A stretch of DNA of 40,536 nucleotides, from the NCBI GenBank assembly GCA_022827025.1, contig JAJDTT010000088.1:1-40536 (forward strand), given 5' to 3'. Below are positions 8,869-15,368 of the stretch, piece by piece. Below the pieces are notes generated by a model. That model made no database searches. It saw only the letters and a program-made list of their open reading frames with translations, and had not been told where the DNA came from. A program made the translations under genes and the position numbers. This DNA is from Acidobacteriota bacterium. GTDB lineage: Bacteria > Acidobacteriota > UBA6911 > RPQK01 > JAJDTT01. Position 1 is the first letter of the stretch. Every line of letters begins with the position of its first letter.

Positions 8869-9061
8869 GGTGTATTATCCGGAACCTGCTGTTACTAAAG
8901 ACGTTGCTTGGAAGCGGGACGTCGGCTTTGGTAGACTCTCCGGGCTTCTTCGGCCCGCTTCCGGCTGCCGCTGATGGCAGCGGTCTCCGCATTGTGGAGG
9001 CCTCATAGTCTAACATTAATCCGCATGCCGCCGGCGGGAGCGGCAGGGGCCGAGGGTGACC
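8869..9061. other. Divergent intergenic region between aroC and mlaE
   Basis: This 193-base region must hold the promoters for aroC (leftwards) and mlaE (rightwards). A -10-like GATAAT on the minus strand at 8879-8874 is only five bases from the aroC ATG and has no good -35. A short hairpin with arms CCGCTG and CAGCGG lies near 8968-8983. A GAGGG ribosome site is at 9052-9056. No convincing promoter pair was found. Confidence 0.35.
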
Positions 9062-9820
9062 ATGGATTTCCTCTACAAGATCCTCTACGAGGTCGAGGAG
9101 TTCGTCACCCTCACGATCCGAAGCGTCACCAACATCTTCCGCCGTCCACGCTACATTCAGGATACGTTCCAGCAGATGGAGACGATCGGGGTCCGGTCGG
9201 TTTTGATTGTGGTCCTGGTTGGATTTTTCACCGGCGGCGTCCTGGCCCTGCAGACTTCGAAATCGCTCAAGGCGTTCGGCGCCGTGAATCTGATGGGACA
9301 ATTGATCTCCCTGTCGTTGATCCGGGAAATGGGCCCCGTGCTGACGGCCTTGATGCTGGCCGGCCGGGCCGGTTCAGGCATCGCCTCGGAATTGGGATCG
9401 ATGGTGGTGACGGAGCAGATCAGCGCCATGCGGGCCCTCGGAACGGATCCCGTGAAAAAGCTGGCGACTCCACGCGTGATCGCCTGCACCACCATGGTGC
9501 CTCTCTTGACCGTGATCGCAGACCTGTTCGGACTGATCGGAGGGTGGATCGTATCGTTCTACAATCTCCGCTTGAATACGGCCCTCTACTGGAATACGGC
9601 TTTTCGAGCCATCGACTACAATGTCGTACTGGAAGGCCTGATGAAGCCGGTCGTGTTCGGCTTCATCGTCGGGTCGGTGGGCTGCTACTACGGCTTGGGG
9701 ACCCGGGGCGGAACCCGGGGCGTTGGCCGCAATACCACGCAGGCCGTGGTGACGGCCTCGATCATGGTCATCGTGGCCGATTTTTTCCTGGGCAAGCTCA
9801 TCTTGGAGTTGTGGCATTGA
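9062..9820 (+). CDS. mlaE: MlaE-type phospholipid ABC transporter permease
   Basis: MlaE is the inner-membrane permease of the MCE/Mla system, which moves phospholipids between inner and outer membranes. The 252-residue protein has the usual MlaE length. It shows the elbow helix near the N-terminus, several hydrophobic helices and the conserved segments LIREMGPVLTALMLAGRAGS and SELGSMVVTEQISAMRALGT, followed by DPVKKLATPRVIA. The ATG at 9062 has GAGGG five bases upstream; a GTG at 9056 would overlap that site. Its stop overlaps the mlaF start. Confidence 0.94.
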   Translation: MDFLYKILYEVEEFVTLTIRSVTNIFRRPRYIQDTFQQMETIGVRSVLIVVLVGFFTGGVLALQTSKSLKAFGAVNLMGQLISLSLIREMGPVLTALMLAGRAGSGIASELGSMVVTEQISAMRALGTDPVKKLATPRVIACTTMVPLLTVIADLFGLIGGWIVSFYNLRLNTALYWNTAFRAIDYNVVLEGLMKPVVFGFIVGSVGCYYGLGTRGGTRGVGRNTTQAVVTASIMVIVADFFLGKLILELWH

Positions 9821-10611
9821 GTGTGATCCGCTTCGAGAACGTCACCAAGAAATACGAGGATCACACCGTGCTCCAGGATTTCGACCTGGAGGTGCGCCGG
9901 GGCGAAACCATGGTCCTGCTGGGAGGATCGGGGTCGGGGAAGTCGACCATCCTCAAAATGGTGGTGGGACTGGTGAGTCCCGATTCCGGGGCCGTGTTCG
10001 TGGACGGCCAGGAGATCACGCGGCTTCGAGAGGAGGATTTGATGCCGATTCGCCGGAAGATCGGCATCGTGTTCCAGGAAGGCGCTCTCTTCGATTCCCT
10101 GACGGTCAGGGAGAATGTGGCCTATCGGATCCTCGAGTCGGACGGATATACGATGGAGGAGGTCGACGACTGGGTGTTCCGGCTCCTGGGATTCGTGGGA
10201 ATGCAGGACGCCATCGACAAGATGCCCTCCGAATTGTCGGGGGGAATGAAGAGGCGCGTGGCCATCGCCCGGGCATTGATGGGCAGCCCGAGGATCATGC
10301 TCTACGATGAGCCGACCGCGGGGCTTGATCCCATTACCAGCAGAATCACCTGCGAGCTGATCATGAGGCTGCGGGACCTGGAAGGCGTGACCGGGATTCT
10401 GGTCACCAACGACCTGCAGGCGGTTCGCGCGCTTTCGGGAGAAGTGTCCGCGAAGGCCCCGGATGGTACCGTCGGCTTCAAGCCGGTGCCCCCGGAGACG
10501 ACATTGCGGAACACTCGCTTCGTCATGCTCAAGGATGGCCGAGTCCATTACGAGGGGGGAGATCCCTCCCGGGAGGGGGGCGACGAATACGTCCGTGAGT
10601 TCCTGGCCTGA
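9817..10611 (+). CDS. mlaF: MlaF-type phospholipid ABC transporter ATPase
   Basis: MlaF is the cytoplasmic ATPase that powers the MlaE permease. The domain is complete: Walker A GGSGSGKST, Q-loop IVFQEGALFDSLTV, signature LSGGMKRRVAIARAL and Walker B IMLYDEPTAGLD. The H-loop position reads LVTNDL, with Asn where most ABC ATPases have His, so the switch residue is atypical. The chosen start is TTG at 9817, overlapping the mlaE stop as TTGA with GGAG eight bases upstream; GTG at 9823 is an alternative. The 264-residue length is normal. Confidence 0.93.
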   Translation: MSVIRFENVTKKYEDHTVLQDFDLEVRRGETMVLLGGSGSGKSTILKMVVGLVSPDSGAVFVDGQEITRLREEDLMPIRRKIGIVFQEGALFDSLTVRENVAYRILESDGYTMEEVDDWVFRLLGFVGMQDAIDKMPSELSGGMKRRVAIARALMGSPRIMLYDEPTAGLDPITSRITCELIMRLRDLEGVTGILVTNDLQAVRALSGEVSAKAPDGTVGFKPVPPETTLRNTRFVMLKDGRVHYEGGDPSREGGDEYVREFLA

Positions 10612-10702: not shown

Positions 10703-11989
10703 ATGAACAGAGGCAGAGGGAGACCGGCCCGTCTCGCCGAGCTCAAAGTCGGAATATTCGCCATTGTCACCATGGCGATTCTGGCTTTGGCCGTCTTCAA
10801 CATCGGCACTCGAGTCGGGCTCCTGGAGGACACGTTTCGAGCCAAGACGTACCTCAACGACACCTCGGGATTGAAACCTTCGGACATCGTCCTCATCGGC
10901 GGCGTCGAAGCCGGAAACGTCACGCGGATCAAGATCTCCAAGCCGGGCGAGATGCCTCCGACCGAGACGAACCGGATGAACCTGGCACAGATCCGCGAAC
11001 TGGAGGCACTGGCGGAAGAGGAGCGGAAGAAACAGCCCCTTGAAGAGAATCGTCTCAAGGAGATCCAGTCCGGGATCGACAGGATCAGGCGGCGGCTCCA
11101 GAACGTGGAGGTCTACCTGGACATCAAGCAGGAATACCGGGTCTGGATCCAGCGGGACAGCAACATCTCCCTGGGGTCCATCGGCCTGCTGGGCGACAAG
11201 TACGTGGAGGTCTCCCTGGGGCGGTCCGACGAGCCTCCACTGGTGGTCGAAGAGGAGTTCGAGACCTGGTTCGGCGTGGAGACTGAAGAGGTGGTGGTGA
11301 TCACCGGTTCCACGGAGGCCGGCTTCAGGGAACTGATTCTCGGAGCCAACGACGTTCTGGTCAACGTCGAGGCTCTGTCCGGCCGGTTGCAGGAAATCAT
11401 GAAGGGTCTGGGCGAAGGACAAGGCACCGTCGGCCAGTTTCTGACCAATCCCGAATTCTTCAACAAGGTCAACAGCATCATGGCTTCGACCCAGCAGACC
11501 AGTGAAAGAGTGGCCACGCTGGTCGAACGCCTCCTGGAAGGGTCCGGGACCGTTCCCAGCCTCATTCGCGAGGATGACATCTACCAGAGCGTCCGGGGCA
11601 TCTCCGCCCGGATGGACGAGATCATCAAGCGAATCGAGCAGGGGGAGGGCACTCTCGGAAAGCTCTCCAAGGATCCCTCGCTCTACGACAGGATCGAACA
11701 CACGACTGCCAGCCTCGAGTCCATTACGAAGCGCATGGAAGCGGGAGAGGGCACCCTGGGACGACTGTCCACGGATGACCAGCTCTATGTGGACCTGCGC
11801 CGAACCATGGACCAGATGGCCGAATTCCTGAAGGCCATTCAGGACGGGGAGGGGACCCTGGGCCGGTTGGCCAAGGACGAGGCGCTGTACGAGAATCTGA
11901 ATCATCTGACCTCGGAAATGGTGAAGTTGATCCATGACTTCCGCCAGGATCCCAGGAAGTTCCTGACCATCCGATTCAAGCTGTTCTGA
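10703..11989 (+). CDS. mlaD: MlaD-type MCE-domain protein with C-terminal repeats
   Basis: MlaD proteins are inner-membrane-anchored periplasmic lipid-binding subunits of the MCE transporter. This one has 428 residues; E. coli MlaD has about 180. It has an N-terminal transmembrane helix (about 14-36) and an MCE domain (about 45-185) with DTSGLKPSDIVLIGGVEAG and the LGSIGLLGDKYVEVSLG strand. A charged helical insertion at about 80-135 splits the domain. After it comes a long helical tail with five related G[EQS]GT[LV] repeats starting at residues 239, 280, 314, 348 and 382, the last four spaced exactly 34 apart. The tail is predicted helical and probably spans the periplasm. Confidence 0.9.
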   Translation: MNRGRGRPARLAELKVGIFAIVTMAILALAVFNIGTRVGLLEDTFRAKTYLNDTSGLKPSDIVLIGGVEAGNVTRIKISKPGEMPPTETNRMNLAQIRELEALAEEERKKQPLEENRLKEIQSGIDRIRRRLQNVEVYLDIKQEYRVWIQRDSNISLGSIGLLGDKYVEVSLGRSDEPPLVVEEEFETWFGVETEEVVVITGSTEAGFRELILGANDVLVNVEALSGRLQEIMKGLGEGQGTVGQFLTNPEFFNKVNSIMASTQQTSERVATLVERLLEGSGTVPSLIREDDIYQSVRGISARMDEIIKRIEQGEGTLGKLSKDPSLYDRIEHTTASLESITKRMEAGEGTLGRLSTDDQLYVDLRRTMDQMAEFLKAIQDGEGTLGRLAKDEALYENLNHLTSEMVKLIHDFRQDPRKFLTIRFKLF

Positions 11990-12005: not shown

Positions 12006-12851
12006 ATGATTTCGCAAACCATCGGCCAGGGAGCCCAGGTCATCCTGAGGGGAATCGTACGGGGATTGATGGCGTTGCACGTCAAGCCCAATCACCTCAC
12101 CGTTCTGGGGTTCATCACCAGCATCTGGGCCGCGTTCGTTTTTGCCAGCGGCCACTTCGTGACCGCCGGCCTGGTGCTGATCCTGGCCGGCCTGTTCGAC
12201 ATGGTGGACGGCATGGTGGCCCGGACCGCCAACACCGCGACTCCCTTCGGGGCCTTCTTCGACTCGGTGATGGACCGCTACTCGGACTTGATCATCTACC
12301 TGGGCCTGATCATTTATTACGGCCAGCAGGACAGGTCCACCTACGTCGTCCTGGTGAGCGTGGCCATGATGGGGTCGGTTCTGATCAGCTACACCAGGGC
12401 ACGGGCCGAATGCCTGATCCCCAGTTGCAAGGTCGGTTTCCTGGAACGTCCCGAACGCCTGGTCCTGCTCATCATCGGCTCCTTCTACTTCATGGAGCCC
12501 GTCCTCTGGGCCATCGCCGTCATCGGAAACTGGACGGTGATTCACCGGATTCTCCACACCCGCTCCCAGATGAGGCTGTCCGGGCAAGAGGCGGGTCAGG
12601 GGCGCTCCGGCCGGCAGCCGCAGGGATCGATGCGGTACGTGCGCGGAACCTGGCGCTACGACGTTGTCTGCGTGATGATCCTGGGCTTTATTTTTCTGAC
12701 TCCGGGCTCGGTCTTCGACGGTTCCCTCTTCTCCAAGAGGCAGGAGCCTGAAAACCAGCAGGAGATCGTTCCGGATCCGAAGAAAACCCAGGTCCGGACC
12801 TTCAACAGAGGGATCTTTCCGCCCTCCCGGCAGGAGATCTCACCACCTTGA
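12006..12851 (+). CDS. CDP-alcohol phosphatidyltransferase with C-terminal extension
   Basis: This family transfers a phosphatidyl group from CDP-diacylglycerol to an alcohol to make phospholipid headgroups. The catalytic motif D-x2-D-G-x2-A-R-x8-G-x3-D-x3-D is complete, with D65, D68, G69, A72, R73, G82, D86 and D90, amid about six transmembrane helices. VKPNHLTVLGF near the N-terminus is also typical. The acceptor alcohol cannot be read from sequence; inositol phosphate or glycerol phosphate are both possible. After about residue 195 the protein carries an extra 85 residues with one more transmembrane helix (VVCVMILGFIFL) and a polar tail. It follows mlaD by 16 bases and overlaps the next gene as TTGA. 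Confidence 0.87.
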   Translation: MISQTIGQGAQVILRGIVRGLMALHVKPNHLTVLGFITSIWAAFVFASGHFVTAGLVLILAGLFDMVDGMVARTANTATPFGAFFDSVMDRYSDLIIYLGLIIYYGQQDRSTYVVLVSVAMMGSVLISYTRARAECLIPSCKVGFLERPERLVLLIIGSFYFMEPVLWAIAVIGNWTVIHRILHTRSQMRLSGQEAGQGRSGRQPQGSMRYVRGTWRYDVVCVMILGFIFLTPGSVFDGSLFSKRQEPENQQEIVPDPKKTQVRTFNRGIFPPSRQEISPP

Positions 12852-14489: not shown

Positions 14490-15368
14490 CTAGCGGAGCT
14501 CGATCAATTCCGCTCCCGGAGGGACCGGCAGGTCGAAGTGCCGTTCCTCCAATCGGCGCCCGGTCTTCAGGCTTTTCGGGTCCAACTGGAGCCGGAGCGT
14601 GTATCGATCCCGAGGCCGCTCCAGCACGATTCCGGTGTTGACGGCCGCCTGACCCACAGCGACGGGCGCAGTGTAACGAATCGAGCCGGCGACCGCGCCG
14701 TCGGCGTCGTAGTAATCCTGGCGCACCAACTCCAGCTTGCCGCGTTCGATCCAGAGTCTTCTCTTTAGACGTGCCTTGTCGCTGTCCAGTTCAAGGAGGA
14801 CGTAGTACCTGGCTCCAGCGGCCGTCTCCTCGATCAGCAGGACCCCTGCCGACGGTCCCACCGGTAGCGGCTCAATCAGAATGGCCGGGAGTACGTGCTC
14901 CGGGCGAACGTTGTAGATGGGGTTGTCGTGGCTGCGCTCGAGATCGGTGCTGCCCGTCACGAACTTGTTCCTGGTAGGAGCCCAGATCTGGAACCGCGCC
15001 CGGCTGCTGGCCATGGCGACGACGGTGGTTCGAGTCAACGGATTCTGCACGTTGATGCGGATGGAATCGGGACGCCGGGCGATGATTTGGGCGGGTGTTT
15101 CCCGATATCGCTCGTAGTAGTTTTCGTCCGGCAGGTCCCCCTGCAACTCCAAGCTCATCTTGGCGACCAGGCTTTCCACACCGGCGTAGGACGAATTCAC
15201 CAGTTGGACCAGGTCCGGGAGTGTGGAGTGCAGAACCTGTCGTTGGACCGGCGCCTCCTCGACCCGGACCTTCGTCTTGATGATCTTTCTGCAGCCGGCC
15301 GGAAACAGCGCCAGCATCAGGAGCGCGAGCAGCGCGCGCCCTGCCGGACCGGAGGCCGGCGGGATCAC
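14490..15368 (-). CDS. Lipoprotein with LolA/LppX-like features
   Basis: This is a 292-residue predicted lipoprotein: a hydrophobic signal (ALLALLMLALFPAGC) ends in a lipobox with cysteine 26. The mature part has a helix-plus-strands pattern (VESLVAKMSLELQG, ITARRPDSIRI-like strand, FQIWAPTRNKFVTGS) that recalls the LolA/LolB/LppX and DUF4292 superfamily. That resemblance is by eye only. It overlaps the upstream DedA-family gene by four bases, so the two are probably co-transcribed. A role in lipoprotein or lipid handling is inference from fold resemblance and context. Confidence 0.65.
   Translation of the reverse strand: MIPPASGPAGRALLALLMLALFPAGCRKIIKTKVRVEEAPVQRQVLHSTLPDLVQLVNSSYAGVESLVAKMSLELQGDLPDENYYERYRETPAQIIARRPDSIRINVQNPLTRTTVVAMASSRARFQIWAPTRNKFVTGSTDLERSHDNPIYNVRPEHVLPAILIEPLPVGPSAGVLLIEETAAGARYYVLLELDSDKARLKRRLWIERGKLELVRQDYYDADGAVAGSIRYTAPVAVGQAAVNTGIVLERPRDRYTLRLQLDPKSLKTGRRLEERHFDLPVPPGAELIELR

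Follow-up and report, generated by a model that had tools for sequence, protein, structure and literature searches.

A long MlaD-like protein of an Acidobacteriota bacterium with a predicted helical hairpin in its MCE domain and a tail of GxGT rungs spaced in heptad steps

How phospholipids cross the periplasm without shuttle proteins is an open question. Long forms of MlaD reportedly account for 85% of MlaD homologues. For the one from Veillonella parvula, a hexamer model gives a tunnel of about 23.5 nm, and parts of the protein were localised to both membranes (PMC10665443). The same paper describes barrel-less long MlaD proteins as common and predicts a six-stranded mini-barrel for two of them. 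In Mce1 of Mycobacterium smegmatis, each subunit has eight helical repeats parted by kinks or short linkers; repeats from all six subunits come together in six-helix bundles, which are stacked and enclose a hydrophobic tunnel, and the portal is a six-stranded barrel to which each C-terminus gives one strand (PMC9882608). The idea of a tube or needle is already published for both long MlaD (PMC10665443) and Mce1 (PMC9882608). Finally, Acinetobacter baumannii MlaD carries a 47-residue helical insert between strands 4 and 5, whose function was called unclear (PMC7677376).

Here we describe an MCE protein of 428 residues encoded in a 40,536-nucleotide stretch of contig JAJDTT010000088.1 from an Acidobacteriota bacterium (the whole stretch is referred to as the window). 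The protein has the features by which long MlaD is recognised and which V. parvula MlaD shares, namely an N-terminal membrane helix, a single MCE domain and an extended helical region, with mlaE and mlaF alongside (PMC10665443). The NCBIfam matches of the MlaF-like ATPase include PRK11831 (MlaF), with 151 bits against a cut-off of 441. The adjacency of mlaE and mlaF to the PF02470 gene counts for a trans-envelope role, and we consider it likely that the protein is a long, trans-envelope type of MlaD. Unlike V. parvula MlaD, the window chain does not have a ten-stranded barrel: its model contains no strand past residue 200, and about 12 residues follow the last long helix, which places it outside the barrel subtype of long MlaD. 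Its helical tail is also the longer of the two (209 versus about 150 residues; PMC10665443). Furthermore, the MCE domain of the window protein contains a helical hairpin, a feature that the accessible part of PMC10665443 does not mention for V. parvula MlaD.

Table 1. Features of the locus, in coordinates of the window; residue numbers refer to the 428-residue protein
Feature	Coordinates	Strand	Evidence
mlaE-like permease	9056..9820	+	PF02405 MlaE, E 7.9e-77
mlaF-like ATPase	9820..10611 (start approximate)	+	PF00005, E 7.6e-37
Long MlaD-like MCE protein, 428 aa	10703..11989	+	PF02470, 37.6 bits; 3′ of mlaE-mlaF
N-terminal membrane helix, residues 10-37	10730..10813	+	AlphaFold2 model
MCE strands 1-3, residues 44-78 (E44-51, E62-65, E68-78)	10832..10936	+	AlphaFold2, block pLDDT 93-96
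Helical hairpin between MCE strands 3 and 4, residues 80-133	10940..11101	+	AlphaFold2; homologue comparison
MCE strands 4-8 and pore-lining loop IGLLGDK, residues 134-200	11102..11302	+	AlphaFold2, E135-142 to E191-200
Helical tail, six long helices parted at five GxGT motifs, residues 208-416	11324..11950	+	AlphaFold2, period and consensus
Rung motif 1, GQGTV, residues 239-253	11417..11461	+	motif scan
Rung motif 2, GSGTV, residues 280-294	11540..11584	+	motif scan
Rung motif 3, GEGTL, residues 314-328	11642..11686	+	motif scan
Rung motif 4, GEGTL, residues 348-362	11744..11788	+	motif scan
Rung motif 5, GEGTL, residues 382-396	11846..11890	+	motif scan
C-terminal stretch PRKFLTIRFKLF, residues 417-428, possible portal strand	11951..11986	+	end-residue conservation
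CDP-alcohol phosphatidyltransferase, adjoining gene 3′ of mlaD	12006..12851	+	PF01066, E 4.8e-19

The protein belongs to the MCE/MlaD family by its PF02470 score of 37.6 bits (cut-off 25.1), and the match falls into two stretches because the insertion splits the MCE domain. Narrower families do not claim it: it scores 51.8 bits against 135 with TIGR04430, the equivalog of proteobacterial short MlaD, and 34.2 bits against 140.5 with TIGR00996, the paralog family of Mce1-type actinobacterial MCE proteins, and with one MCE domain per chain it lies outside the PqiB/LetB type, which has at least three. When its own genome was searched with the Pfam MlaD profile, no match was returned and the known mlaD at 10703-11989 was missed, probably owing to the interruption of the domain by the insertion; surveys resting on PF02470 may undercount the insertion clade.

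An AlphaFold2 single-chain model of the protein was built with 63 sequences and gives block pLDDT values of 89-98 over the MCE domain and the insertion, but 47-82 for the tail. Structural comparison matches 96 residues of the MCE core to E. coli MlaD (5uw8_B; Z 15.7, 1.6 Å); the name of the core's pore-lining loop is taken from the MCE-protein literature (PMC9882608). By sequence, the nearest solved chains are those of A. baumannii MlaD (E about 1e-6). Residues 11-428 also align with Mce1B (8fed_B; 302 residues, Z 15.1), although the rmsd of 64 Å means that this alignment holds piecewise only.

A sequence-only reading of this DNA had noted an interruption of the MCE domain at about residues 80-135 by a charged, predicted helical segment, and its bounds proved right. 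The insertion covers 54 residues, 43% of them charged, and is modelled as two confident helices (88-109 and 115-130; block pLDDT 92-98). Like the window protein, A. baumannii MlaD (6z5u, 7d06; PMC7677376) has an MCE domain enlarged by a helical segment; the site differs, lying between strands 4 and 5 there and between strands 3 and 4 (E68-78 and E135-142) here, and the A. baumannii chains of 222-226 residues are without the long tail. A literature search of titles and abstracts, with supplementary files outside its reach, returned no description of a strand 3-4 insertion or of a GxGT rung. What we have not found described before is hence the strand 3-4 hairpin together with the heptad-stepped rungs; the long MlaD needle itself is already known. 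A sequencing or assembly artefact can be dismissed, as both the insertion and the tail recur in L003 and L051, which come from two further assemblies of the genus.

Homologues were compared in 92 deduplicated rows, made up of L051-L130 without L086, L120 and L121 (77 rows) and of 15 of the rows L001-L038 not already present; L004 ends at a contig end. Two peptide patterns served to retrieve 80 loci, one of them taken from close to the C-terminus (the YDFRQNPKKY region). Alignment A2 holds 62 of the 80 loci, and alignment A3 holds 41 loci and P0001. The insertion is present in 35 of the 92 rows, while the other 57 have 2-14 residues at the site. From the genus to the class of the window's organism, 34 of 38 genomes gave a match to the protein, and with one match at a contig end (G027) left out, all 33 rows examined carry the insertion. 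The same alignment includes eight rows from other classes: seven of them are without the insertion (3-9 residues) and one, L032, has 88 residues. On a quick tree of MlaD itself, built without the insertion columns and with SH-aLRT support only, presence of the insertion needs one change (SH-aLRT 96) and no loss occurs among the 35 rows. On this tree the insertion thus has one origin, and the question whether it is lineage-specific is answered in the affirmative.

In length, the insertion comes mainly in forms of 51-54 and 95-96 residues: 51 (n=13), 54 (n=4), 91 (n=2) and 96 (n=11), with 80, 86, 88, 90 and 95 found once each. Its three length classes need three changes on the tree, and the window's genus, with its 54 residues, is nested within a clade of 86-96-residue forms. 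Since short and long forms occur inside one order, the insertion amounts to a natural experiment. The AlphaFold2 model of a 96-residue form (L058) has two longer helices, 86-130 and 135-170 (block pLDDT 89-98), which exceed those of the window protein by 23 and 20 residues. The 42-residue gap between the 54- and 96-residue insertions is close to three heptads per helix, but this is not strict: the lengths 51, 80, 86, 88, 90, 91 and 95 are not all whole heptads off 54 or 96.

The insertion evolves fast. Among the eleven 95-96-residue forms used for this comparison, pairwise identity is 32% in the insertion and 77% in MCE strands 1-3. The dN/dS is 0.42-0.48 in the insertion as against 0.08-0.10 in the MCE core (the identity and dN/dS calculations label the insertion 79-132, its true span being 80-133). 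These figures, together with the 57 homologues that manage without an insertion, would suit a tolerated loop, grown at a permissive β turn and with no function of its own; such a reading concerns the insertion alone and is compatible with a needle. Nevertheless, the dN/dS of the insertion is still below 1, a length of 95-96 is kept in 12 of 18 long rows though the letters diverge, the hairpin helices are confident in both models, and the insertion arose by one change on the tree and was not lost in any of the 35 rows; we regard the tolerated loop as a real possibility, while leaning against it. The retention of a charged coiled-coil hairpin in one clade could also point to a docking arm for a partner, be it another envelope protein, the cell wall or MlaE, and the neighbouring genes for a CDP-alcohol transferase, a LolA-like protein and LolD are conserved across much of the clade. 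The low sequence conservation of the insertion argues against one conserved interface, however, and the same neighbours occur in loci without the insertion (e.g. L068, L070 and L075), which makes a docking arm, in our estimate, rather unlikely. Most likely, the hairpins would act as spacers or braces: the strand 3-4 insertions of a hexamer would give six coiled-coil hairpins projecting off the ring. The sequence-only reading had put forward a possible extra collar on the hexamer.

We turn to the tail. The motif G[EQS]GT[LV] had been read from the sequence at residues 239, 280, 314, 348 and 382, and these positions are right, with gaps of 41, 34, 34 and 34. When the tail is compared with itself, lag 34 is the best (mean BLOSUM62 score 0.78); in 1000 shuffles, no lag scored above -0.12. 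In the AlphaFold2 model, long helices span residues 208-237, 250-279, 291-312, 326-346, 359-380 and 393-415, and a short helix follows every GxGT motif. The proposal that the 34-residue repeat marks a helical rung is retained, as is the persistence of its period in close homologues. A consensus of 262 distinct 34-residue rungs reads roughly GEGTLGKLINDPxLYxxLxxTLxxLxxIxxxI and is hydrophobic at positions 5, 8, 9, 14, 18, 22, 25, 28, 29 and 32, a heptad-like pattern.

Motifs were scored in all rows with a rung matrix whose source proteins were the very ones scanned (threshold 6.0, shuffle maximum 4.8). A varying number of repeats had been held possible beforehand, but the number hardly varies: 78 of the 92 rows have five motifs, and the remaining 14 have four and, 34 residues before the first of these, a degenerate stretch that in some of them (e.g. 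L077 and L081) is without GxG. What varies is the spacing, which does so by sevens. Across species, tails extend from 245 to 270 residues beyond the pore loop. The 354 spacings, which are not independent events since many are shared by descent, comprise 262 of 34 residues, 82 of 41, five of 48, one of 55 and four of 38; hence 350 follow the rule 34+7n, while the four of 38 count against a reading in heptad steps. Tandem copy variation as the origin of tail length was rejected, the motif number being five or four plus a degenerate one in 92 of 92 rows. Twelve more distantly related rows of the phylum (L039-L050, two of which, L043 and L050, are fragments) have one to four motifs with other spacings and were kept outside the 92 as too distant.

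A Pfam family covering the tail was sought and rejected, every other Pfam match of the protein lying below its cut-off. The NCBIfam model NF047463 (Leptospira-type Mce) matches three stretches, the best of them in the tail (E 1.2e-16), with 61 bits against a cut-off of 400; from these matches, related rungs probably exist in other phyla. A search of the window's own genome with NF047463 returned no match, although hmmscan of the protein itself does; among the controls, Bacteroides ihuae was positive.

The tail might instead be a flexible, mostly disordered tether. At several GxGT motifs of the model pLDDT falls below 50, as it does over much of the L058 tail. The low to middling confidence of the tail, with block pLDDT of 37-62 beyond residue 240 in L058, counts against a needle. 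A tether, however, would sit poorly with the regular heptad-like consensus, with a tail dN/dS of 0.15-0.17, with spacing in sevens and with helices in both models, and we consider it very improbable. The disordered tail that would have spoken against a rung was not seen: the model shows helices there, albeit with pLDDT of 47-82. The tail of the model fits the plan of Mce1 and V. parvula MlaD, with six helices and five junctions. Like Mce1 (PMC9882608; 8fed), the protein would combine an MCE ring with helical repeats and kinks; unlike Mce1 with its eight repeats and six different subunits, it has six helices and five junctions, and a homohexamer is expected from the single gene in the window.

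At the C-terminus, every one of the 92 homologues has F or W as its last residue, and the distance from the last motif to the end is 47 residues in 81 rows, 54 in six, 45 in four and 44 in one, which lies on a cut contig. Conservation is among the highest in the last 12 residues (pairwise identity of 75-78% in the 96-residue and the 51-residue groups); just before the C-terminus it partly reflects how the loci were picked, since one fetch pattern was the YDFRQNPKKY region itself, rows L001-L038 having been chosen otherwise. Residues 424-428 have pLDDT below 50 and a C-terminal strand is absent from both monomer models (window and L058), so that the portal strand is put forward by analogy with Mce1, from which a single C-terminal strand per chain would be expected (PMC9882608).

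The missing barrel domain would also be compatible with a needle that falls short of the outer membrane on its own and whose tip, closed as in PqiB, depends on a lipoprotein of the outer membrane, an arrangement proposed for Brucella MpcD and its PqiC-like MpcA (PMC12436622). Conservation of the last 12 residues weighs against this, as does the PqiC-type domain, which was not found in the window's own genome and appeared in 2 of its 38 relatives, one of these below the cut-off; we take a closed tip to be unlikely. As for a needle that reaches the outer membrane without shuttles, MlaA was found in none of the 38 genomes from own genus to same class and MlaC in one, the E. coli and Caulobacter controls being positive for both, and the window's own genome gave no match to either, as is the tendency, not a strict rule, of long MlaD. 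This scarcity agrees with the published trend of long MlaD lacking both, seen also in the MlaEFD-only system of V. parvula (PMC10665443). The negatives for MlaA, MlaC and PqiC amount to moderate evidence, since the whole-genome PF02470 search missed the known mlaD. In one genome of the same order (G005), a strong MlaC-type match was observed besides a long MlaD (C676:3551-4033, E 4.5e-45); it may represent a second system or contamination and, like the two PqiC-type matches, weighs against the needle reading.

From these comparisons we infer a hexamer, a tube, a portal and a flow of lipid, and likewise any role of the hairpins. By analogy with homologues, six copies would assemble into an MCE ring seated on the ABC transporter MlaE-MlaF, each anchored by its N-terminal membrane helix. 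Every tail would be a series of helices of about 20-30 residues, which six abreast would make six-helix bundles, with the GxGT motifs as junctions joining successive bundles. Six modules and five junctions would stack into a hollow needle long enough for the outer membrane, the 209 residues of the tail spanning at most about 31 nm if fully helical (1.5 Å per residue). Because the hydrophobic core must keep its register, a module could be lengthened by whole heptads only. At the tip, each chain would contribute roughly its last ten residues as one strand of a six-stranded barrel, the portal, and phospholipid would pass through the tube, powered by MlaF and without an MlaC shuttle. A more ambitious version is that the tail is a molecular ruler, in which five junctions and six six-helix modules are constant in number and the overall length is matched to the local periplasm only through whole heptads gained by single modules, and that the hairpins are six arms of the ring, tuned by about whole heptads, which set the distance to a neighbouring envelope layer; as a combined claim we hold this to be quite doubtful. 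The countable, heptad-spaced rungs offer a handle, as a rung or a heptad could be added or removed and function read against the width of the periplasm.

The gene that adjoins mlaD on its 3′ side may hint at the lipid carried. A CDP-alcohol phosphatidyltransferase lies 3′ of or near mlaD in 31 of the 80 fetched loci. In the window, its product (12006-12851, + strand) is nearest to inositol-phosphate lipid synthases (NF040950, 157.8 bits; NF045883, 128.2 bits; both below cut-off), and a LolA-like gene follows on the 3′ side, on the same strand as mlaD and closely spaced. Adjoining lolD, a gene at 14490-15368 (- strand) encodes a 292-residue protein with a lipoprotein-like start (..LFPAGC..) and a weak LolA_like match (E 0.11); this protein could be a LolB-like outer-membrane receptor, and a match to it lies near lolD in several loci of the insertion clade. 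A collection of plasmids gave no match. The closest named relative is an Acidobacteriota MAG (L051, 89% identity). From 18870 to 40024 the window holds ordinary chromosomal genes, among them those for cytochrome c assembly, a nucleoside transporter, ATP synthase subunit a, complex I subunits and a sugar epimerase.
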